Shown here in pieces: positions 275 to 30,540 of a stretch of 34,281 bases of DNA. The position numbers were made by a program, and so were the translations under genes. The DNA is taken from NCBI GenBank assembly GCA_016744315.1, contig JADGER010000007.1:1-34281 (forward strand). Reading direction: 5' to 3'. Origin of the DNA: Sulfurovaceae bacterium (lineage in GTDB: Bacteria > Campylobacterota > Campylobacteria > Campylobacterales > Sulfurovaceae). The number at the start of each line of letters is the position of its first letter. Position 1 is the stretch's first letter. The notes below the pieces were generated by a model that saw nothing but the letters and a program-made list of their open reading frames with translations, searched no databases and was not told the origin of the DNA.

Positions 275-2011
275 ATGCCATATATAGATTGGATGGGTAA
301 AGAAGATGTACAAAATCATCATAAAAATATTACTTATAAGACGATTGAGTGTAAAGAAGAGATAGGCGATAAAGATAGTGAGAATATGATTATCAAGGGC
401 GATAACCTCTTAGCACTTAAATCACTTTTGCCTTATTATGCCTCTAGTGTCAAGATGATATACATTGACCCACCTTATAATACGGGGAATACTTCGTGGG
501 TTTATAATGATAATATGGATAGTCCTCTTATCAAAAAATGGCTAAACGATACAGTCAATGCCGATGATTTGAGCAGAAGCGACAAATGGCTTTGTATGAT
601 GTATCCACGACTTAAACTTTTGAGAGAACTACTTAAAGATGATGGGGTGATTTTTATCTCTATTGATGATGCAGAAGTAGCACATCTTAGAATGATATGT
701 GATGAGATTTTTGGTTCTGAAAATTTTATAACAGAAGTGATATGGGAAAGAGCTTTTGCCCCAAAGAATGATGCTAAATATTTTTCAGTCAGTCATGATT
801 ATATTTTAGTTTATGCTAAAAAAATTGATAAATGTAAAATAAATAGATTGGCTAGAACAGAAGAAGCAAATAGCCGATATAAAAATCTTGATAATGACCC
901 TAGAGGTATATGGATTTCTGATAATTTAACAGTAAAGACTTATTCTGAAAAATATGATTATCCAATAGAAACACCTAGTGGTAAATTAATTAATCCATCA
1001 ATAGGTTTGTGTTGGCGTGTATCACAAGAAAAACTTAAAGAGTTAGTTGATGATAATAGGATTTGGTTTGGTAAAGAAGGTTCAAATGTACCTCGTCTAA
1101 AAAGATTTTTATCCGATGTTCAAGATGGAATGGTGCCGATTAGTCTTTGGAAACATGGAGAAGTTGGACATAATCAAGAAGCAAAACAAGAAAGTAACAA
1201 AATTTTATTTGATAAAACTCTTTTTGAAACTCCTAAACCAGTAAGGCTAATTCAAAGAATATTACAACTTTCAACATCAAAAGATGACATAATCCTAGAC
1301 TCATTCGCAGGAAGTGGTACAACTGCTCATGCTGTATTGGAACAAAATAAAGAAGATGGTGGAAATCGTAAATTTATATTGATAGAAACTTTGGATTATG
1401 CCAAAGATATAACAGCTGAACGAGTAAAAAGAGTGATACAAGGGTATGATTTTACGGGGAAAGATAAAACTACTTTGTATGAAAATAAACTCACAACGAC
1501 ACAAATATTAAAGCCTGAGACTATGGAAAAAGTATCTAAAGAAGTAAGTAAAATAGTGGAAGATGAAAAGCTAAATTATACAAAGATAGAAAAGACTTTT
1601 AAAGATAATATACTTAAAGTTGAGGGTATTAAAAATATAAAAAGCTTTAAAGATGGCATTGGTGGAGGGTTTAAATATTGTGAATTAAGTTATGATATTT
1701 TTGATGAGTTTGGAGAGCTAAACGCTAATCTTAGCTTTGAGCAAATCGCAAAACATATCTATTTTGTAGAGTTTAAAAAGCCTATAGATAAAAGAGAGAG
1801 AGAAGCTCCTTTTGTAGGTTCATTTAAAGATACTCATATCTATTTTTATGAAAATAAGTTTCTCAATAAAGATTTGACACAAGTGCTAAAAAGAGATAAA
1901 GTCTATAAAAATATTATTATTTATACTACCAAAACCACGGTATCAGACGATATATTAAAAGAGAAAAATATTATCATAAGATATATCCCTTATGACATAA
2001 AGGATAATTAA
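275..2011 (+). CDS. Type III restriction-modification system DNA methyltransferase (Mod), beta-class N6-adenine MTase
   Basis: DPPYNTGN catalytic motif precedes DSFAGSGTTAHAV SAM-binding motif (beta order), with a variable central region. Its stop overlaps the res start (TAATG). Confidence 0.93.
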   Translation: MPYIDWMGKEDVQNHHKNITYKTIECKEEIGDKDSENMIIKGDNLLALKSLLPYYASSVKMIYIDPPYNTGNTSWVYNDNMDSPLIKKWLNDTVNADDLSRSDKWLCMMYPRLKLLRELLKDDGVIFISIDDAEVAHLRMICDEIFGSENFITEVIWERAFAPKNDAKYFSVSHDYILVYAKKIDKCKINRLARTEEANSRYKNLDNDPRGIWISDNLTVKTYSEKYDYPIETPSGKLINPSIGLCWRVSQEKLKELVDDNRIWFGKEGSNVPRLKRFLSDVQDGMVPISLWKHGEVGHNQEAKQESNKILFDKTLFETPKPVRLIQRILQLSTSKDDIILDSFAGSGTTAHAVLEQNKEDGGNRKFILIETLDYAKDITAERVKRVIQGYDFTGKDKTTLYENKLTTTQILKPETMEKVSKEVSKIVEDEKLNYTKIEKTFKDNILKVEGIKNIKSFKDGIGGGFKYCELSYDIFDEFGELNANLSFEQIAKHIYFVEFKKPIDKREREAPFVGSFKDTHIYFYENKFLNKDLTQVLKRDKVYKNIIIYTTKTTVSDDILKEKNIIIRYIPYDIKDN

Positions 2012-4644
2012 TGCTAAAAAGATACCAAAAAAAATCATTAGAAACTTTAGATGCTTTTTGTCAAAAATCACTTAATAGTACACCTACGGAAGCTTTTAGA
2101 GAGATGACTTCAAATCAATATCTTGAAGTAGATGATTATACAAATCCTTATGTATGCCTAAGAGTGCCTACTGGTGGTGGCAAGACACTGATAGCCACAA
2201 AAAGTTTGAGGATTTTGGTTAATGAATATCTAGATAAAAAGTATCATCTTGTTTTTTGGTTAGCCCCAAGTGATAAGATAGTAAGCCAAACACTTGAAGC
2301 ACTCAAAGACAAAAGGCATTTTTACAGACAATCTTTGGATAGGGATTTTGACAATATAAATGTAATGAGTGTCAAAGAGAGTTATAAACAAAAGTTTGAC
2401 CCTCAAAATGAATTGGTGATTATTATTGGTACTATTCAAAGCTTTAGAACAAAGAATAAAGAGGGTAGAAAGTTTTATGATGAAAATGGACATTATTATG
2501 AATTACTAAAATCTTATGATATTAAACCCTCTTTAGACAATGCGATGAAGCATTTTAAACCTATTATTATTCTTGATGAAGCCCATAAGTCTAGCACAGG
2601 ACTTAGTCTCACAAATTTACTTGCGTTAAAGCCCTCATTTATATTGGAGTTTACGGCTACACCAGTGACCAAAACGAGTAAGGCAAAGAGTATCTATGCT
2701 AGTAATATTTTATACAGTGTCAATGCCTCACAACTCAAAAAAGAGAATATGATAAAACTACCTATACTACTAAAAACTATTGATGATACAAAGTTGATAT
2801 TAAAAGAGAGTATTGAAAAAAGAGATTATTTAGAACAGTTGGCAAAGTTGGAGATGATAGTAACAGATAAATATATACGACCTATCAACCTCATAAGAGC
2901 AGATGAAAATAGAGGTAGTGACTCTATGACTTATGATAAAATCAAAGCTATCTTAATGGAAGACTTTAATATAGCAGAAGAGCAGATAGCCATCCAAACT
3001 GGGAACTTAAAAGAGATAGATAGCGTTGATTTATTAAGTGATAGTTGTAAGATAAGATATATTATCACAGTAGATGCACTCAAAGAGGGGTGGGATTGTC
3101 CTTTTGCGTATATCCTTAGTGTCGTATCTAATATGCAATCAAAAACAGCAATAGAACAGCTTATCGGTAGAGTGCTAAGAATGCCCTATATAGAAGAGAA
3201 AAATAAAAAAGAGTTGGGTTATAGTTTTGTTTATGTAAAAAGTGAAAACTTTGAAGAGGTGGCTTCTAGTATCGGAGATACACTTATAAAGAGTGGATTT
3301 GAAGAGTTTGAAGCTAAGGTAAGTATAAATAATACAGACGATACCAATGAGTTTATGGGAGAATTAGGTGGTATATTTGGAGCAGATTTATATGAAGATA
3401 GACAAATAGAAGTAGATGATATAGATTTAGAAGAATTAAACAAACCATCTATCTCTCCTTATATAAATTATAATAATGAGACTAAAGAATTAACTATTAT
3501 TAAAATGCCTACAGCTTCAAAAAGAGAAGCATTTATTAAAAGTGTTCAAAAAATTGTACCTGATAATAAAAGAGATGAAGTTGAAAAAATAGTTAGAGAT
3601 TTAGAAAAACTAAACAGTGATAAATTAGATTTGATTACAGATATAGTATTACCTAGACTATTGATAAATAAAGGTGGTGAAGAGATAGAATTTGAAGAGA
3701 GTTTAATATTAGAGTATATTGATATAACAGATAAAGAGTTGATACAAAATGCTTCTTTGACACTTGACGAATTTAGTGTAAATATAGAAGAGCATATAGG
3801 ACAAATTGATATAACTCAAAGTAATAAACTCTCAATAATAGAAGTAACAACAAAAAATTCTCTTTTTGATGCACAAGAAAATAGTTATATATCAGATGTA
3901 ATCAATGAATATGGTATCAAAGTAGATGATAAATCAAATATAGCTAAATTATCAGTGGGTATATCCAAACTTATTAGAGATGAAAATAGTGATATATTAA
4001 AAATAATAAGTTCAGAGCAACTTAATCAGTTTGTCTCTTTAGTCATAATTAATTTAATAGATGAGAGAGAAGATATAAATATTTATATCTGTGAAAATCA
4101 TCAATATCAGCTAAAAAGAGCCATATTAATTAAATTAAATAAAATGATATTTGAATCTAAAAATCTAAGTTTTAATAATCTTTTAAATATTAATAGTTTT
4201 ACTACAAATATAGAAAGTGTATTTACACTCAATAACTATAAACCAAATGAAGATTCAAGAAGTTCAAGCTTTAATAAACATCAATATAAATATGCTGATA
4301 AATTTGATAGTAATGAAGAGTATATCTGTGCAAAATATATTGATAATTTACCACAAGTGACAACATGGATTAAAAATATATCTGGAAATTATGGAAACTC
4401 TTTTTGGTTACAAACTTCGACAGATAAGTTTTATCCTGATTTTATTATTAAACTAGATAATGGCAAGACAATAGTTGCAGAGTACAAAGGTGAGCATCTT
4501 AAAACCAATAATGATAGCAAAGAGAAAGAGATTATTGGTAATGCCTTTGCTTCATTAACTGATAATATTGAGTTTTTGATGTTATATAAAGATGACTATA
4601 AGAATAAATTGGATGAGGTAATTAAGGCTAAAACCAAGCATTGA
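2011..4644 (+). CDS. Type III restriction endonuclease subunit (Res), SF2 helicase plus PD-(D/E)xK nuclease
   Basis: Walker A TGGGKT, DEAH box (IILDEAHKS), TATP motif, C-terminal YPDFIIKLDNGKTIVAEYKGEH nuclease motif. Directly follows mod. Confidence 0.93.
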   Translation: MLKRYQKKSLETLDAFCQKSLNSTPTEAFREMTSNQYLEVDDYTNPYVCLRVPTGGGKTLIATKSLRILVNEYLDKKYHLVFWLAPSDKIVSQTLEALKDKRHFYRQSLDRDFDNINVMSVKESYKQKFDPQNELVIIIGTIQSFRTKNKEGRKFYDENGHYYELLKSYDIKPSLDNAMKHFKPIIILDEAHKSSTGLSLTNLLALKPSFILEFTATPVTKTSKAKSIYASNILYSVNASQLKKENMIKLPILLKTIDDTKLILKESIEKRDYLEQLAKLEMIVTDKYIRPINLIRADENRGSDSMTYDKIKAILMEDFNIAEEQIAIQTGNLKEIDSVDLLSDSCKIRYIITVDALKEGWDCPFAYILSVVSNMQSKTAIEQLIGRVLRMPYIEEKNKKELGYSFVYVKSENFEEVASSIGDTLIKSGFEEFEAKVSINNTDDTNEFMGELGGIFGADLYEDRQIEVDDIDLEELNKPSISPYINYNNETKELTIIKMPTASKREAFIKSVQKIVPDNKRDEVEKIVRDLEKLNSDKLDLITDIVLPRLLINKGGEEIEFEESLILEYIDITDKELIQNASLTLDEFSVNIEEHIGQIDITQSNKLSIIEVTTKNSLFDAQENSYISDVINEYGIKVDDKSNIAKLSVGISKLIRDENSDILKIISSEQLNQFVSLVIINLIDEREDINIYICENHQYQLKRAILIKLNKMIFESKNLSFNNLLNINSFTTNIESVFTLNNYKPNEDSRSSSFNKHQYKYADKFDSNEEYICAKYIDNLPQVTTWIKNISGNYGNSFWLQTSTDKFYPDFIIKLDNGKTIVAEYKGEHLKTNNDSKEKEIIGNAFASLTDNIEFLMLYKDDYKNKLDEVIKAKTKH

Positions 4645-12188: not shown

Positions 12189-14645
12189 TTATACCTTCCT
12201 TATTGTTACGGTTTTATATCTATCACTACCAAAGAGTGTATAAATATCATTTGCACTTTTGAAATCAGGGATAGAAACAATATCACCCTCCATTCTCTCA
12301 TCTGCAACCACATCAAAGAGCAGTGTACTTTTACCAAAGTCTACTTCTACTTTTTCACCCAATGCTTTTGCTTTTGCTGTACTAGCCGAGAGAGAGAATG
12401 TCTCAAAGATTTGATGTGCTTTATCAGAGAAATCATTAAACTGTCGCTGAGGATTACATCTGTACGCTATTTCACCTTCGATAACAAACTTTTCACTAAA
12501 TGGTTTTGGCTCATTTTTACCTGATCTTCTTCCAAGATTTTTCAGCAAATATCCACGATTTTCTTGACCTTCATTTGTATAACCATTTGGAAGATCATCA
12601 AAAGCCAAGGCTTGGAAACCTCTTTTAGACGCAAGTCTAGGAGTCCAATCTATAGTCAATAGTTCTCCACACTCTAAAGCATTCATAAGATCATTTAACT
12701 CATATCCCTCATACTCTAATGCTGCATTTGTTGGAGTTACTCTTTTGTGCATATTAGTCAGTGTTCCCTCTTGCTGGTTCATAGCTGGCATATCCAAATC
12801 ACCATCACCCAACGCAGAAAGTCTAAAGTCACCATTTTCATTATAACCTACAGTATAGCCTTCTACTTTTTCATCAAGCTCACACAAAAGTGCAACACCT
12901 AATGAATTAGTTTTAGGTGGAATCATAGCTACTTTCATATTACAACTTTTTTCTATCAAAGCAACAAGATGTGCCAAGTTTTCGGCTTTTGGATGATAAT
13001 AAAGATCTTCTCCAACGATAAGAGAGAATGACTCTTTTTTCTTCATCATTTTTTCAAATGTTTCAGCAAATTTATCATTACCACCAAGAAGTGTTACCAG
13101 AGAATTTCTCTCTACCTCTACCTCTTTTTCTACCATTTTAGGAACTTTTTTACTTACTTCTTTGCTCTCACCTGTTGCTTCATCTACAACAGTTTCAGTT
13201 ACTGTTTCCATCACTTTTTCTTTGATAGTAATAGTTTCTGTAAAGTGGAAAGAGTCAAGATAGCTTTTTGTACTCTCTTCTAACTTCTCTTTGTCGGCAA
13301 ATAAATCAAGAATCAAATAGAGTGCTGCTTCTTCTAGTCCTACTTTATGTGTAAAGGATACTACATTTTTTCCCATATCTGCAATAAGACTATCAGCAAT
13401 AGGATGGAAATAAAGACCTGCACCTTTATTCATTTTTTGGATATTATTAAAGGCATATCTTGCATTGGGATTATCATTTCGTAATGATGCTCCAACAGAA
13501 ATAACAAAATCTGTTGTCATAATCTCTTTGAAATCACTACCATACAAAAGATGACCAGATGGTTTTCCATAATATTTAAGAAATTTTTGGAAAGCATACG
13601 CATCAGAGTTTACTAACTTTTTGCCATACTTCTCTTTGAGCGTTTGAAGCATAAGTGCTTCTTCATTGCTAATAAGAGAATTAAATCGTATAGTATCTGC
13701 TTTTGTAAGTGCATCCACAGCATTATTAAAGGCTATTTCATCTTTACCGTTTACACGATTTTCAAAATCATATCCAAATCGCCCTGCTCCACAAAGTGAT
13801 ACATAGTTCCACTCATTTGTTACACGGAATATTTTTTCTGTATTATCTTCTATAGAAGCTGGTTTTGTCTCATAATATATCTGACATCCACTACTACAGT
13901 GCGCACAAGTAGCAGGAATCCGTTTAAGATCCCAAGCATTTGTAGTATATACAAAATCTCGACTTACTAATGCACCCACAGGACATACAGCAATACATTC
14001 ACCACAATCACTACAATTTGTCTCTGCTGTTCCATTGCTAGGAATAATCACAGATTTCTGAAGCTTATTCCACATAGCATAGGCATCTTTAGGCATAGAA
14101 TCTTTTAACTCTTTGCCTAATTTTTCTCCGCCTCTTGGCCCTGTTTTGATAGCTGCATCACCCATCATATCTTTACAAACTGTTACACATCTTTCACATA
14201 CAATACAAAGACCTGCATCATAATGAAGAATGCTACTCCAATCTACAGATTCTCTTTTAGTATCAGGAATCATATAACTTTGTGAATCTACAGCTAATTC
14301 AAGTGTGTAGTTTTGTAACTCACACTCACCACTTTGATCACAAACACCACATTGAAGAGGATGGTTCACATCATAAACTTCCATAATAGCTCTACGCTCT
14401 TCGAGAATCTCTTCAGTACTAGTTGTAACTTCCATTCCATCTTTGGCTTTTGCATTACATGCATACACTCTTTTTCCATCAGCTTCTACTAGACAGATAC
14501 GACAAGCAAGTGTTGGCGAACATCGTGTCAAGTAGCAGATAGCAGGAACAAAGATATTATTAGCACGAGCAGCATTTAGAATATATTCACCCTCTTGGGT
14601 TTTATACTCAACACCATCAATCTTAATCGTTATTTCATTACTCAT
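12189..14645 (-). CDS. nuoG: NADH-quinone oxidoreductase subunit G, paralog 1 (818 aa)
   Basis: 2Fe-2S (CYLTRCSPTLACRIC...C), HPLQCGVCDQSGEC, CIVCERCVTVC / CSDCGECIAVCP, CAHCSSGC...C (N7-type) motifs. Confidence 0.93.
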   Translation of the reverse strand: MSNEITIKIDGVEYKTQEGEYILNAARANNIFVPAICYLTRCSPTLACRICLVEADGKRVYACNAKAKDGMEVTTSTEEILEERRAIMEVYDVNHPLQCGVCDQSGECELQNYTLELAVDSQSYMIPDTKRESVDWSSILHYDAGLCIVCERCVTVCKDMMGDAAIKTGPRGGEKLGKELKDSMPKDAYAMWNKLQKSVIIPSNGTAETNCSDCGECIAVCPVGALVSRDFVYTTNAWDLKRIPATCAHCSSGCQIYYETKPASIEDNTEKIFRVTNEWNYVSLCGAGRFGYDFENRVNGKDEIAFNNAVDALTKADTIRFNSLISNEEALMLQTLKEKYGKKLVNSDAYAFQKFLKYYGKPSGHLLYGSDFKEIMTTDFVISVGASLRNDNPNARYAFNNIQKMNKGAGLYFHPIADSLIADMGKNVVSFTHKVGLEEAALYLILDLFADKEKLEESTKSYLDSFHFTETITIKEKVMETVTETVVDEATGESKEVSKKVPKMVEKEVEVERNSLVTLLGGNDKFAETFEKMMKKKESFSLIVGEDLYYHPKAENLAHLVALIEKSCNMKVAMIPPKTNSLGVALLCELDEKVEGYTVGYNENGDFRLSALGDGDLDMPAMNQQEGTLTNMHKRVTPTNAALEYEGYELNDLMNALECGELLTIDWTPRLASKRGFQALAFDDLPNGYTNEGQENRGYLLKNLGRRSGKNEPKPFSEKFVIEGEIAYRCNPQRQFNDFSDKAHQIFETFSLSASTAKAKALGEKVEVDFGKSTLLFDVVADERMEGDIVSIPDFKSANDIYTLFGSDRYKTVTIRKV

Positions 14646-14646
14646 C

Positions 14647-16920
14647 TTAACTATCCATTGTTTCTAATTTGGGTTGATTAAATCTATAAGAGGATACCGT
14701 AGAGCTACTTAAGCCCATATCGAAGCTAGGGTTAATAGCTACAGTTCCTTTCATTAATGTATCAATCATAAACACTCGTTCATATACTACGCCATCTAGT
14801 TCAAATTTAACTTTCGCACCATCTTGGAGCTTTGCAATGCTTGCAAACTGTGCAGATCCTCTCAAAAGAGCTTCAGTTTGTAACTGTTCACAATTATTAG
14901 TAAAAGCAGAAAATTGAGTATTTGTGTTACAGTGATAGATAACACTTCCATCATAAGTAGGAAGTGTACTTACTTCATCCAATTTACCATTCTTTTTATA
15001 ACGAGACTGTGTTAATAAATACCCACGGTGTTCCTCTCCTACACTATTATAGTAATCAGGCAAGTCATCAAACTCTATTGCTTGATAGCCATTTTCTATA
15101 GGAAGTTTTACTGTGTAATCTATTGTATTTGTAGCATTAATATCTAAGGCATTGGCTATATCATTAAGTGTATATCCACCATAAGGGAGTCCTGCATTTG
15201 TAGGAACTACTCTTTTATCCAAAGAAGTAAACGACCCTTCTTGTTGATTAAGTGCTGGCATATCTAAATCACCATTACCCAAAGCACTTAAGACAAAATC
15301 AGCCTTTGTGTTATATCCTACGCTATATCCTTCTACCTCATCATCTAAATCACAAACTAATGCAACACCTAAAGAATTTGTTGCAGGTGGAACAAGAAGC
15401 ACTTCAAAATCACTATATGCTTGGATAAGACCCAAAATTTTAGCAATATTTTCAGCTTTAGGATGCGTATAAATATCTGCACCCACAACCAAAGTAAATC
15501 CTGATTTTTTATCAAAAGAGTGAAGAAGAGCATCAAGTTCTTCTTCTCCAATATTACTCTCAGCACTTAAATTACCAATATCTAAATCATCCAAATATGC
15601 TTGTACTACTTTTGTTGGTTTTTGAGCATCAAGCAATGTATACGCAAGCAACGCAGCCACACCCTCTTCGCTTCCAACTTCGTACTTTATAAATTGTGTA
15701 ATAATAGCTTGAAGAGAAGAATCTTCTATTGGATGCATATACGCAACTCTTGCTCTTTGTCGTCTACTTGCCATAGTAATATGATATTTAACCATAGGAT
15801 TATCATCATTAATGCGTGTACCAAAAACAATAATACCTCTTGATGTTGAAAGGTTTTGAAGATTTCCACTATAAAGAGATTTCCCTGTCATACTAGAAAA
15901 TGCATGTAAAAATTTCTGATAGCCTCTTGCTTCATCACAAATAAGCTTTGTTTGATACTTCTGCTTAATACTTTGAAGTATCATCGCTTCTTCGTTAGTA
16001 ATAGTAGCCGTAAAAGAAATACTCTCTGCTTTTTTTACAGCCTCTACAGCTTTGGCAAAGGCATCACTATCTTTGCTTACTGATTCATTAGCATAATCAA
16101 AACCAAATCGTCCAGCACCACAAAGAGAAGAGAATTCAAAATTATTCGTTACTCTATATATCTTCTTTTGTGTATTTCCAATAGCTGTATCTTTTATCTC
16201 ATAATTCATTTGACATGCCGCACTACAATGAGAACAACTTGCAGGAATTTTTTCTAACTCCCAAGCATTGGAAGAGTATTTAAAATCTGTACTCACTAAT
16301 GCCCCTACAGGACAAACAGACATACACTCACCACAATTACTACATACTTCATCTTGTTTGGTATTAATAATAGTAGAGTTATATCCTCCAGCTGAAATAG
16401 CTAAAACATCATCACCTACAATCTGTGTACATACATGCACACATTTTTCACACATAATACACAGGCTAGGGTCATACGAAATAAAACCCCAATCTTGCAC
16501 AGGTCTATGAGGCTCTTTAGCAGAAAAACTCTGCCCAGCTACATCAAATTCCATAGTCTTATTTTGTAAGTCACACTCACCACTCTTATCACAAACACCA
16601 CATTCAAGTGGATGGTTTACATCATAGAGTTTCATAATACTTTGTCTTTGTTTATGAATTGCGTCTGTAGTTGTTGTAATAACAGCACCATCAACAGCTT
16701 TCTCCTGACAAGAGAGAATCATACCATCAACACCCTCCACATCAACCACACACATTCTACAAGATGCTATTGGTTCTACTTTTGTGAGGTAACACATTGT
16801 TGGGATATAAATATCATTAGCTCTAGCAATATTTAAAATAGTATCACCTTTGCTTCCTTGACAACTCTTTCCGTCTATAGTAAGTGTTATACTATTTGTA
16901 TCTATTTTTTTTGCTGTCAT
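14647..16920 (-). CDS. nuoG: NADH-quinone oxidoreductase subunit G, paralog 2 (start probably MTAKKIDTNS at 16920, not 16989)
   Basis: Same Fe-S architecture as paralog 1 (HPLECGVCDKSGEC, CIMCEKCVHVC, CSNCGECMSVCP, CSHCSAAC...C). The ORF extension to 16989 overlaps the upstream gene; the internal ATG gives a 1-nt gap. Confidence 0.92.
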   Translation of the reverse strand: MTAKKIDTNSITLTIDGKSCQGSKGDTILNIARANDIYIPTMCYLTKVEPIASCRMCVVDVEGVDGMILSCQEKAVDGAVITTTTDAIHKQRQSIMKLYDVNHPLECGVCDKSGECDLQNKTMEFDVAGQSFSAKEPHRPVQDWGFISYDPSLCIMCEKCVHVCTQIVGDDVLAISAGGYNSTIINTKQDEVCSNCGECMSVCPVGALVSTDFKYSSNAWELEKIPASCSHCSAACQMNYEIKDTAIGNTQKKIYRVTNNFEFSSLCGAGRFGFDYANESVSKDSDAFAKAVEAVKKAESISFTATITNEEAMILQSIKQKYQTKLICDEARGYQKFLHAFSSMTGKSLYSGNLQNLSTSRGIIVFGTRINDDNPMVKYHITMASRRQRARVAYMHPIEDSSLQAIITQFIKYEVGSEEGVAALLAYTLLDAQKPTKVVQAYLDDLDIGNLSAESNIGEEELDALLHSFDKKSGFTLVVGADIYTHPKAENIAKILGLIQAYSDFEVLLVPPATNSLGVALVCDLDDEVEGYSVGYNTKADFVLSALGNGDLDMPALNQQEGSFTSLDKRVVPTNAGLPYGGYTLNDIANALDINATNTIDYTVKLPIENGYQAIEFDDLPDYYNSVGEEHRGYLLTQSRYKKNGKLDEVSTLPTYDGSVIYHCNTNTQFSAFTNNCEQLQTEALLRGSAQFASIAKLQDGAKVKFELDGVVYERVFMIDTLMKGTVAINPSFDMGLSSSTVSSYRFNQPKLETMDS

Positions 16921-16921
16921 A

Positions 16922-18931
16922 CTACACCGCCACCATAGAGATATAATAACAACGCATACATCGTTCAGACTCTGCAAGTGCTTCTTCACCTGTAAAACCT
17001 AGATTAACTTCTTTATTGTTATCTCTTCGCTCGTCTACCCCAAGTTTTTCACTCTCTGCTCGTGGTAAACCTGGCATCCAGCCTGTAACTTTCTCTTTTT
17101 TATCATAAACTCTCAACTTATTAAGATGATCTTCCATAATCTCATCATCAGTAAGTGATATTTTGCCATCATAAATATAACGACTCATTACTGAAGCTGC
17201 TCTTTTGGCTTGTCCTACTGCATTTACAATAGTCATAGGACCATATTCACAATCTCCACTCGCAAAAAGCCCTGCTCTACTTGTCATATAATCTTTACCA
17301 TTTGTAAGGATAGTATTCCACGAAGTAAGTTTGATTTCCCATTCTTCAGGCAGAAGTTGTAAATCAGCAGCTTGTGAAACAGCAGGAATAAGATAATCTG
17401 TTTCTATTTCAAAATCACCATCTTCAATCTTCAATAATTGTGCTCTTCCACCATTTGGATCAGGAACAAGTTCAAACTTATTGATAAGTAATTTTGTTAA
17501 TTTATTATTTTCATCATAAATTTTCTCTACAGCTGAGTGGAAGATAAACTCTACACCCTCTTCTACTGCTTCGTGATACTCTTCGTAAGTAGTATTACGG
17601 ATAATAGTCTTCTCATCACGACGATAAATCATCACAACTTTTTTGGCTCCCTCACGAATAGAACATCGTACAACATCCATAGAGGTAAATCCACCACCAA
17701 CACATACAACAGTTTTGTCTTTGAGATCTTCAGAAGCAGAAGAACCAATACCATATTTGCTCCATAGATTTACTTTATCAAGCATATCTATCGCACCCCA
17801 ATATCCATCCATATCTGGTCGTTCATTTTCTGCACGAACCTTTTTGGAAAGACGAGTACCAAAAGCAAGCATTGTAGCATCATACTCTGCGTCAATCTCT
17901 TTGAGTCTAGTAGCGTCAACACGATGATTAGAATAAACAGTAACTGATTCCATAGAAGTTACGAGTTCAATATCTTTATTATACTTATCTATTGGCATAC
18001 GATATTCAGGTACACCTACAGCAACTTCACCACCAAGTACTGGTAGCTCTTCAAAAATATCAACTTGGATACCTTCTAAAGCCAAATAGTAAGCCGTAGT
18101 CAAACCAGCAGGACCAGCTCCAATAATAGCAACTTTCTTACCATCATTTTTCAAAGGCTTTGGCTCAAAAGGGTGCATCCACCCTAAACCATGATCTGTC
18201 TCATAATCTGCACCTAATCTTTTGAGTTCCATAATAGCTATAGGCTCATCAAGATTAGTTCGTCTACACGCATCTTCACATGGATGAGGACAAACTCGTC
18301 CACAAGTATGTGCCAAAGGCATAGTTCCTCTTGTAGCAGCAAGTGACTCAGAGAAAACCATATCTCGAACACCCTCTATATATGCAGGAATATCTACATG
18401 TGCAGGACACATATCTGTACACGGTGCAGTAACTTTGGCTATATAATTAACATCTGCATTATAATGTTTAGAAGGTGTTTGATTATCTATAACATAATCA
18501 AACTGATCTTTATAATGCTCCATCAAATCTAATATTGGCTTTGGTACAGTTCGTCCTATCTCACATTTGGAAGTAAGCATCATAGTCTCACTTACCTCTT
18601 TAAGGTGATCTATATCTGCTGTAGTACCCTCGCCTCTAGCTATTTTATCAAGAAGGTCAAAAAGTATTCGTCCACCCCATCGTCCAGGTGCACATCTACC
18701 GCATGCTTCTGAATAAACTTGATATTGAGCTGCGTACTCTGTTGCAAGTCTTATAGCATCTATATCCTCTTGGAATATTGCTACACCGTCCCATCCGATA
18801 AAAGCTTTAGAGCGTCTATCGGCAGTGTAATCCTCAGGAAGTTTAAATGCTGACTGTCCCCACTCATCAGATGATTTACCACGATTATCGATAAACTCAT
18901 CTTGCCAAGTGGAGAAAACAACTTCTGACAT
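16922..18931 (-). CDS. NuoF-like C-terminal (N3 cluster) domain fused to GltD-like FAD/NAD(P) pyridine-nucleotide oxidoreductase
   Basis: N-terminal EACGRCAPGRWGGRILFDLLDKIARGEGTTADIDHLKE...SKCEIGRTVPKPILDLMEHYKDQF resembles the NuoF 4Fe-4S domain. Then CTDMCPAHVDIPAYI / TCGRVCPHPCEDACRR, two Rossmann motifs (VAIIGAGPAGLTTAYYLA; VVCVGGGFTSMDVVR) and C-terminal ERCMRCYY, as in the glutamate synthase small subunit family. Confidence 0.9.
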   Translation of the reverse strand: MSEVVFSTWQDEFIDNRGKSSDEWGQSAFKLPEDYTADRRSKAFIGWDGVAIFQEDIDAIRLATEYAAQYQVYSEACGRCAPGRWGGRILFDLLDKIARGEGTTADIDHLKEVSETMMLTSKCEIGRTVPKPILDLMEHYKDQFDYVIDNQTPSKHYNADVNYIAKVTAPCTDMCPAHVDIPAYIEGVRDMVFSESLAATRGTMPLAHTCGRVCPHPCEDACRRTNLDEPIAIMELKRLGADYETDHGLGWMHPFEPKPLKNDGKKVAIIGAGPAGLTTAYYLALEGIQVDIFEELPVLGGEVAVGVPEYRMPIDKYNKDIELVTSMESVTVYSNHRVDATRLKEIDAEYDATMLAFGTRLSKKVRAENERPDMDGYWGAIDMLDKVNLWSKYGIGSSASEDLKDKTVVCVGGGFTSMDVVRCSIREGAKKVVMIYRRDEKTIIRNTTYEEYHEAVEEGVEFIFHSAVEKIYDENNKLTKLLINKFELVPDPNGGRAQLLKIEDGDFEIETDYLIPAVSQAADLQLLPEEWEIKLTSWNTILTNGKDYMTSRAGLFASGDCEYGPMTIVNAVGQAKRAASVMSRYIYDGKISLTDDEIMEDHLNKLRVYDKKEKVTGWMPGLPRAESEKLGVDERRDNNKEVNLGFTGEEALAESERCMRCYYISMVAV

Positions 18932-27741: not shown

Positions 27742-30540
27742 ATGATAGATAACGCATCCATAGAGTCACTCAAAAGTACCATTGATATTGTTGATGTAGT
27801 TGGCAACTATATAGAACTACGAAAAGCAGGAGCTAATTATAAAGCTAATTGCCCCTTTCATGGAGAAAAAACTCCAAGCTTTGTAGTAAGCCCAAATAAG
27901 CAGATATATCACTGTTTTGGATGTTTAGCTCCTACCGAAGAGATTAGAACCAAGAATGGCTTAAAACAGATTCAAAATATTCAAGTTGATGATGAGGTTT
28001 TTAGCTCTAGTGGAAAACTCACTAAGGTTATTGAAAAACTCAAACATAAGCCTCAATATAAGATGTTGCAATTTAAAACTGATTTAATCAATAGTTGGTC
28101 TACTTTTACAGCCAACCATGATATGTTGATTGTCTCCAAAGAGGAGGCTTTTGAAAAGTTACCTTATATTCGTGTGGAAAAAAATAGACCCCAAAAGTTT
28201 TATGCTGTAATCAAAAAACGAAAACATCTAAAACCAATTACACTAGAGAGTAAAATTGCTTTTGCCCAAGATGTAAAAAAGGGAGATTACTTTTTATATC
28301 CTGTAGATAGAGATACTTTAGAAATAGACACAATAGAGCTAGACTCTTTTTGGGAAAATAAAAAATTTGGTCCATCTCCTATTAAAATTAAATCTGTAAA
28401 TATAACTTCTGATTTAATGTGGATGTTTGGACTCTTTGTTGCTGAGGGTAGTACATATAGAGGTGGTATTAAATTTTCTTTACACTCTAAAGAGTTAAAT
28501 TATGCAAAAAGAGTTATTAAGATTTTAAAAAAGAGCTTTTCTAAGAATGCTTCTCTTTTTTATCCTAGAAATAGAAAAAACTCTTTGGAGGTAACTTGTT
28601 CTAGCACTAATTTAGAATATATTTTTAAAGAACTTTTTTCTAAGGGTGCAGAGAATAAGAGCTATCCTTATTACTTTAATTACTTAAAAAAAGAGTATAG
28701 AGAAGCTCTCTTTTGTGGTTTAATGGATGGAGATGGCTATTATGCAAGAGATAGCTATACAACTATTAGCCAAACACTAGCATACTCTTTGATTGATTTA
28801 TCTATTAGCTTAGAGAAGATACCTGCTCTTTATAGATACTCTGCCTATCAAGATAAACATGGAGTCAATCATAAAAAAAGTTATGAAATACTATTTAAAA
28901 AAAGAGAATCATTAAAGAGCTTTTTTGAAGAAATTTATGGTGTAAAATATCTTTTTATGAGAGTAAAAGAGATTAAAAATGCACCTAAAGAAGAGTTTGT
29001 TTATGATATTACCGTTGATGACTCTAGTCACACATTTTTAACCAAAAACTTTTTGGTAGGAAATTGTGGGGTTGGCGGTGATAGCATAAAATTTGTGATG
29101 GAAATAGAAAAACTTAGCTATCCTGAAGCGATAGAAAAATTAGCCTCTACTTATAATTTTAGTCTGCAATATACCCAAGGAAGTAGTGATTATAGTGAGT
29201 CTAAACGCATCTTAGAATCACTTCAAAAATGGTATGTTAAGAATTTAGACTTTAATAAATCTGCTAGAGAATATCTTTATGATAGAGGCATTAGCAATAA
29301 TTCTATAGAAGCATTTGAAATAGGATTTGTGGGTGGAGGTGGAGAGGTTATGAAATTTCTTTCATCTAACCTTTTTCCTCTTCCTCAAGCACATGAAGCA
29401 GGAGTTATAGCCCAAGGGGAGAAAAAAGAATTTTATGCAAGACTCACCCAAAGAGTTACCTTTCCTATTTATTCTTCTAATGGTTCTATTGTAGGCTTTG
29501 GGGGAAGAACGCTAGGGAATCATCCCGCCAAATATATCAATTCCCCACAAACAAAATTATTTAATAAATCTCGTTTACTCTATGGGTATCATAGAGCTAA
29601 AGAGAGTATTTATGCTCATAAAAAGATTATTATATGTGAAGGGTATTTGGATGTAGTGATGTTCCATCAAGCAGGATTTACACAAGCTGTAGCTACGCTT
29701 GGTACTGCTCTTACCCTAGAACATCTTCCTCTTTTGAGAAAAGGCTCACCTGAGATTATATTAGCGTATGATGGAGATGGTGCAGGAGTTACAGCTGCAT
29801 TAAAAGCTGCACAAATCCTTACCACAGGAGGTTTTGATGGAGGTGTAGTACTTTTTCCTAATGGTCAAGACCCAGCAGATATGATAGCTAATGGACAAAG
29901 TGAACTTGTGGCAAAACTCCTAAGAGAAGCCAAACCTCTTATTCCTTTTATATTAGAAACCATAGCCAATAGCTATAATCTCTCTGACCCAAGAGCCAAA
30001 GAGAGTGCTTTTGCTGATATTAAAAAGTTTTTGGAAACATTGAGTACAATTATGCAAGATGCCTATATTCCTACAGCAGCTAGCTATTTGGGTATATCAC
30101 CCAACCTCTTTGGTAAATCTACCACTATAGCCCAAGCCCATGATAACTTAACAATAGCCAGAGAAGATATAGCACAACTAAGTATTCTAAAGACTCTTTT
30201 GGAAAATCCTTATCTTATAGATGATGTGCTAAATGTAATGGATGGGAGTATGTTTGGTTCTTACCAAAATCTTTTTACTCTGCTTCTTGATAATCAAAAA
30301 GACCATCCTGCCCTTATGGGATTAGCCGTAGATGATACACTTCAGGTACTCAGCAAAGAAGAACTCAAAGTTTCATTACGAAGTTTTTTAATCCGTCAAT
30401 ACAATCTTATGCTCAAAGAGATTGTGACTGATGGTAATATTAATTTTGCTAAAAAAAGCTTTTTGATGCGAAAAATAAAAAGTGATATACTCCCAAGACT
30501 CAAACGAGGAGAATTAGTAGTGTTTAAAAAACTGCTTTAG
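27742..30540 (+). CDS. dnaG: DNA primase precursor, intein-containing (932 aa; predicted mature host protein 551 aa)
   Basis: CHC2 zinc finger CPFHGEKTPSFVVSPNKQIYHCFG|C...; DnaG core (VGFGGRTLGNHPAKYINSPQT); TOPRIM EGYLDVVMFHQAG and AYDGDGAG. Interrupted in frame by an intein at residue 61. Confidence 0.96.
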   Translation: MIDNASIESLKSTIDIVDVVGNYIELRKAGANYKANCPFHGEKTPSFVVSPNKQIYHCFGCLAPTEEIRTKNGLKQIQNIQVDDEVFSSSGKLTKVIEKLKHKPQYKMLQFKTDLINSWSTFTANHDMLIVSKEEAFEKLPYIRVEKNRPQKFYAVIKKRKHLKPITLESKIAFAQDVKKGDYFLYPVDRDTLEIDTIELDSFWENKKFGPSPIKIKSVNITSDLMWMFGLFVAEGSTYRGGIKFSLHSKELNYAKRVIKILKKSFSKNASLFYPRNRKNSLEVTCSSTNLEYIFKELFSKGAENKSYPYYFNYLKKEYREALFCGLMDGDGYYARDSYTTISQTLAYSLIDLSISLEKIPALYRYSAYQDKHGVNHKKSYEILFKKRESLKSFFEEIYGVKYLFMRVKEIKNAPKEEFVYDITVDDSSHTFLTKNFLVGNCGVGGDSIKFVMEIEKLSYPEAIEKLASTYNFSLQYTQGSSDYSESKRILESLQKWYVKNLDFNKSAREYLYDRGISNNSIEAFEIGFVGGGGEVMKFLSSNLFPLPQAHEAGVIAQGEKKEFYARLTQRVTFPIYSSNGSIVGFGGRTLGNHPAKYINSPQTKLFNKSRLLYGYHRAKESIYAHKKIIICEGYLDVVMFHQAGFTQAVATLGTALTLEHLPLLRKGSPEIILAYDGDGAGVTAALKAAQILTTGGFDGGVVLFPNGQDPADMIANGQSELVAKLLREAKPLIPFILETIANSYNLSDPRAKESAFADIKKFLETLSTIMQDAYIPTAASYLGISPNLFGKSTTIAQAHDNLTIAREDIAQLSILKTLLENPYLIDDVLNVMDGSMFGSYQNLFTLLLDNQKDHPALMGLAVDDTLQVLSKEELKVSLRSFLIRQYNLMLKEIVTDGNINFAKKSFLMRKIKSDILPRLKRGELVVFKKLL
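27922..29064 (+). other. In-frame intein with LAGLIDADG homing endonuclease (about 381 aa) in the DnaG zinc-binding domain
   Basis: Block A CLAPTEEIRTKNGLKQIQNIQVDDEV; block B TANHDML; LAGLIDADG-type LMWMFGLFVAEGS (about 28411-28452) and ALFCGLMDGDGYY (about 28702-28740); block F EFVYDITVDDSSHTFLT; block G NFLVGN|C. Removal rejoins YHCFG|CGVGGDSIKFVM. Confidence 0.95.

Follow-up and report, generated by a model that had tools for sequence, protein, structure and literature searches.

An intein splits the CHC2 zinc ribbon of DnaG primase in a Sulfurovaceae bacterium and recurs at the same residue in other Campylobacterota

The window analyzed here, a 34,281-nucleotide stretch from the draft genome of a Sulfurovaceae bacterium (277 contigs, 95.6% complete), encodes the bacterial primase DnaG in a single open reading frame of 932 amino acids with no internal stops (Table 1). 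All hallmarks of bacterial DnaG are present, namely the CHC2 zinc ribbon and the DNAG_N, Toprim, and helicase-binding domains, and this is the only dnaG found in the genome. The zinc ribbon is interrupted. The Pfam model Zn_ribbon_DnaG matches the precursor as two stretches, one on each side of an insert; the NCBIfam dnaG model TIGR01391 (425 bits on the precursor) is also split in two, and residues 61–441, a segment of 381 amino acids, fall outside every DnaG model in both collections. G+C content is approximately 0.28–0.35 across the insert vs 0.33–0.42 elsewhere in dnaG.

Other parts of the window carry features of separate interest. On the forward strand (275–4644), a gene for an N6_N4_Mtase DNA methylase is followed, with a one-base overlap, by a ResIII helicase gene, apparently a type III restriction-modification pair. 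On the reverse strand (12189–18931), an apparent complex I operon includes two consecutive NuoG-like genes and a gene for a 669-amino-acid protein in which a NuoF-type 4Fe-4S domain is joined with a flavoprotein domain of the glutamate-synthase-like kind.

Table 1. Features of the interrupted dnaG gene, in window coordinates.
Feature	Position	Strand	Basis or detail
dnaG precursor gene (N-extein, intein, C-extein)	27742..30540	+	932 aa, stop included
N-extein, 60 aa, with zinc ligands Cys37, His40, and Cys58 (Cys-3)	27742..27921	+	Pfam Zn_ribbon_DnaG; alignment
Intein, 381 aa: Hint splicing domain with inserted LAGLIDADG endonuclease domain	27922..29064	+	Profiles, alignment, model
Cys1, splicing nucleophile, at the fourth zinc-ligand position in the precursor	27922..27924	+	Sequence; invariant among relatives
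Block B T-x-x-H (intein Thr63, His66)	28108..28119	+	Alignment
LAGLIDADG motif 1, MFGLFVAEG (intein 168–176), acidic Glu175	28423..28449	+	Profiles, alignment
LAGLIDADG motif 2, FCGLMDGDG (intein 264–272), acidic Asp271	28711..28737	+	Profiles, alignment
Blocks F and G, VYDITVDDSSHTFLTKNFLVGN; Asp362, His370, penultimate Gly380, terminal Asn381	28999..29064	+	Profiles, alignment
Cys+1 (residue 442): second splicing nucleophile and fourth zinc ligand of mature DnaG	29065..29067	+	Invariant in carriers
C-extein, 491 aa, with remainder of zinc ribbon	29065..30540	+	Pfam
DNAG_N domain in C-extein	29233–29601	+	Pfam; ORF residues 498–620
Toprim (Toprim_4) in C-extein	29623–29826	+	Pfam; ORF residues 628–695
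Helicase-binding domain in C-extein	30166–30519	+	Pfam; ORF residues 809–926

When the insert is removed in silico, the remaining 551 amino acids read C-P-F-H...C-F-G-C-G-V-G-G-D through the zinc ribbon and align end to end with DnaG proteins that have no insert. The closest of these, from genome G009, is 93% identical to the window protein over the C-terminal part. Such relatives rule out an ordinary insertion belonging to DnaG, and a pseudogene is ruled out by the open frame and by the selection described below. A sequence-only reading of this DNA had proposed an intein with these same boundaries and with the CHC2 motif restored upon excision; the boundaries proved exact to the nucleotide, and the restored motif is as predicted.

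Profile searches, a confident AlphaFold2 model, and in-frame alignment to intein-less alleles concur that the insert is an intein. In Pfam, it matches Intein_splicing (E 3e-7), Hom_end (E 2e-5, above the cut-off), and LAGLIDADG_3 (E 2e-4). On the window protein alone, Intein_splicing scores 30.7 bits, under the curated Pfam cut-off of 35.8, and this model and LAGLIDADG_3 are matched in 13 of the 13 aligned family members. The model of the intein, built from 13 relatives, has a mean pLDDT of 88.8 and a pTM of 0.88, and it adopts a Hint fold: its best match in the PDB by Foldseek is the Thermococcus litoralis VMA intein, TliVMA (7qsu, E 2e-17, TMq 0.69), followed by PhoVMA, PI-SceI, and PI-PkoII, and then by stand-alone LAGLIDADG enzymes of the I-DmoI type. 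A sequence search of the PDB returns the same families.

The catalytic residues place the element in class 1. Both nucleophiles, Cys1 and Cys+1, are invariant in carriers, as is the terminal Asn381; block A starts at Cys1, block B holds T63-x-x-H66, Asp362 and His370 stand in block F, and block G closes with V-G-N, with Cys as the following residue. The two LAGLIDADG motifs retain the acidic residues (E175 and D271) of a homing endonuclease. Blocks A, B, F, and G and both endonuclease motifs, all named in the sequence-only reading, are supported. The one departure is at the penultimate position, where the usual His, which is not defining for class 1, is replaced by Gly380; the VGN end occurs in every DnaG carrier. 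Inteins that lack the penultimate His exist, Ssp DnaE being an example cited in PMC8891592, and Gly at this position may slow Asn cyclization.

A scan of 85,488 GTDB species recovered 14 loci outside the window. All 14 are in Campylobacterota, all 14 are in dnaG, and all 14 insertions are at the identical residue, with intein lengths of 379–381 amino acids. The upstream junction reads C-F-G followed by C-L-(A/P); in complete copies, the downstream junction reads V-G-N followed by C-G. The insertion site is also identical in 19 aligned carriers. Whole-genome searches for full or nearly full copies reveal a patchy distribution: among 398 genomes sampled from the phylum, 4 are carriers. The genus of G051 has 12 carriers among 121 genomes, and the genus to which the window belongs has 1 among 10. 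At the family level, there are 7 among 176 for the window (one copy partial and one frameshifted) and 2 among 107 for a third family, that of G373. Host genomes bear the names Sulfurimonas, Sulfurovum, and Arcobacter.

Because the window comes from a fragmented draft genome, we considered whether the insertion might be an error of assembly or binning, a possibility that we regard as negligible. The frame is continuous, the dnaG flanks align with the sister genome, and the same insertion occurs in independent genomes, which rule an artifact out: three assembled as single contigs (G285, G373, and G499), the near-complete G051, and one single-cell genome. Among metagenome copies, L034 and L069 lie on one contig of 28213 bases, and L032 and L068 on one of 12212 bases. 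L032 and L034 are incomplete or frameshifted inside or adjoining the intein, and these defects are probably assembly errors; the shift in L034 is close to a run of A in a contig of 6-fold coverage.

Plasmid records returned no match to the intein, and the sole match in phage records is an intein of 24% identity in a DNA polymerase. Viral contigs yielded terminase inteins at only 30–32% identity, so these searches found no phage carrier of the DnaG-site allele. Campylobacterota also harbor inteins in DnaB at the P-loop GK-T (L043, L047, L048), in ribonucleotide reductase at one or two sites (L041, L062, L070–L073, with a second element in L071 and L072), and in terminase-like phage proteins (L042, L045, L063). 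The DnaB, ribonucleotide reductase, and terminase inteins matched in these searches are only distantly related to the DnaG intein.

The history of the element departs from that of its host gene. On a tree of DnaG exteins (83 rows, 19 of them carriers), 12 gains or losses are needed, 8 of which are forced by well-supported branches. The ratio of intein to extein distance is 2–3 in the closest pairs vs 0.34–0.6 between lineages, and the intein of L023 is 68% identical to that of L039 vs 45% for the exteins. Transfer between lineages is likely, because saturation is unlikely to push the distances of a faster-evolving sequence so far below those of a slower one. In AU tests, extein data reject the intein clade (p 0.0009) and intein data reject the extein clade (p 0.03); these values are optimistic in that the clades were picked from the trees. 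Because at least 8–12 gains or losses are required, and because the inteins of distant hosts resemble each other more closely than do the surrounding exteins, we conclude that the element is mobile.

The intein also evolves under constraint. Synonymous sites are saturated, so differences at four-fold degenerate sites and second codon positions were compared in place of dN/dS. Four-fold sites differ at 0.40–0.62 vs 0.07–0.16 for second positions (0.40 vs 0.07 in the closest pair), a disparity that indicates purifying selection. In one carrier, L074 of genome G707, the second acidic motif has decayed from LMDGDG to LMVGNG and the splicing residues are kept; this copy appears to be late in the homing cycle, as expected from the known course of invasion and endonuclease decay.

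Intein-less alleles are highly conserved over the 36 bp around the insertion site, third positions excepted. At the exact insertion point, the G009 allele (L006) reads GGC TGC CAA ATT vs GGA TGT GGG GTT in the window, so that the protein has CQI in place of CGV. Six of eight bases differ, and with a background of 0.114 mismatches per base, at least six in eight has a probability of 5e-5. This single case may represent a homing-resistant allele or the scar of an intein loss.

Taken with the class-1 residues, these results give us high confidence that the insertion is a homing-endonuclease-bearing intein allele, seated between Gly60 and the fourth-ligand Cys, that is predicted to excise itself and to spread by gene conversion. 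We infer the following pathway, for which every class-1 residue except the penultimate His is seen in the sequence. In an N-S acyl shift, Cys1 would take over the carbonyl of Gly60; Cys442 (+1) would accept the thioester by transthioesterification; Asn381 would cyclize; and an S-N shift would form the extein bond, yielding a 551-amino-acid DnaG with an intact C-x2-H...C-x2-C site. The freed 381-amino-acid protein, a predicted LAGLIDADG endonuclease, would then cut intein-less dnaG at the same conserved codons, and the element would spread through gene conversion at the cut.

The zinc ribbon of DnaG requires its three Cys and one His (PMC6163395). Given this requirement and a genome with a single dnaG, a need for splicing is very likely, and excision of the element is probably required for a working primase in the host cell; the single dnaG and the split zinc site together make it very likely that the cell depends on splicing. 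The noncanonical penultimate Gly could be taken to mean that the element has lost full splicing: it would stop at cleavage or stall, and primase would have to come from another source. We consider this very improbable, given the single dnaG, the intact state of all other splicing residues, the purifying selection on the intein, and the VGN end common to all carriers, those with complete genomes among them. Because dnaG is single-copy, a selfish element at this site must splice well, and on the evidence the default role of the intein is that of a selfish element, with regulation as a possible addition.

The sequence-only reading held that Cys+1 is both splicing nucleophile and fourth zinc ligand, a double role supported by the sequence and by the invariance of Cys442 in carriers. 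It further held that no normal zinc site can form before splicing. The insert does split the site, but the claim is too strong: Cys1 fills the fourth-ligand position, and the precursor reads C-x2-H-x17-C-x2-C, so that the spacing of Cys37, His40, Cys58, and Cys1 is that of the site. In an AlphaFold2 model of precursor residues 1–540, built from 12 shallow sequences, the two parts of the split ribbon are predicted with low confidence.

This arrangement raises the idea that the intein serves as a regulatory switch. A pseudo-zinc site in the precursor, with Cys1 as substitute fourth ligand alongside Cys37, His40, and Cys58, or else a Cys58–Cys1 disulfide, might pause splicing and priming under metal or oxidative stress, so that zinc or redox state would decide when splicing begins. 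Cys-3, Cys1, and Cys+1 occur together in every carrier examined (CFG-C1), and a Cys-3 in the N-extein paired with Cys1 is the sequence arrangement of a MoaA-type redox trap. Many bacteria of the Sulfurimonas, Sulfurovum, and Arcobacter types inhabit oxic–anoxic boundaries. There are precedents: the MoaA intein of Pyrococcus abyssi is controlled by a native Cys-3/Cys1 disulfide, an engineered redox trap in Ssp DnaE has the same arrangement (PMC3922620, PMC10663303), and mycobacterial DnaBi1 is reversibly blocked by zinc on its catalytic Cys (PMC7360933). However, Cys58 is fixed in any case as a ligand of mature DnaG, and its pairing with Cys1 could be a side effect of where the intein sits; the element, with its patchy distribution, behaves like a mobile parasite. 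We hold the switch to be conceivable but rather unlikely. If true, replication priming would be coupled to metal or oxygen status through a swap of ligands from Cys1 to Cys+1.

The element establishes a recurrent site of intein insertion in a replication enzyme that is both essential and single-copy. It comes with material for study of the homing cycle, namely close sister genes without the intein, carriers with complete genomes, and a carrier with a decayed endonuclease. Because splicing nucleophiles and zinc ligands overlap, it can be tested directly whether an intein is able to gate replication by metal or redox state. In carrier genomes, a split CHC2 domain is what gene callers and scans for zinc motifs will encounter.

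Inteins in replication proteins are well known. The sequence-only reading did not count the CHC2 site among the commonly described ones. In the literature we searched there is no description of an intein at this site or of Sulfurimonas inteins, although an earlier one may exist; the site thus stands as undescribed as far as could be searched. The host does not, since DnaG is already named among bacterial intein hosts, with no site, species, or sequence given (PMC5874633, Table 1).

Compared with known systems, the DnaG intein shares its fold and domain order with PI-SceI and the VMA inteins of Thermococcus litoralis and Pyrococcus horikoshii, which are likewise class 1 with LAGLIDADG domains, but differs from them in host protein, insertion site, and penultimate Gly, with only 16–18% identity. 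The nearest full-length relatives found outside Campylobacterota dnaG are the large-terminase inteins L049–L051 on three IMG/VR contigs of uncultured viruses (30–32% identity) and the DNA polymerase intein of Staphylococcus phage 6ec (24%). Each of these occupies another host gene, and the terminase intein ends in VHN rather than the VGN of the DnaG family. The MoaA intein of Pyrococcus abyssi also has both Cys-3 and Cys1 in its precursor, where Cys-3 belongs to a metal-binding motif; its host enzyme differs, and the disulfide demonstrated for MoaA is a conjecture for the DnaG intein. Mycobacterial DnaBi1, like the DnaG intein, resides in a replisome protein, and its catalytic Cys can bind zinc (PMC7360933), but DnaBi1 is a class 3 intein at a different site, with no host zinc motif.
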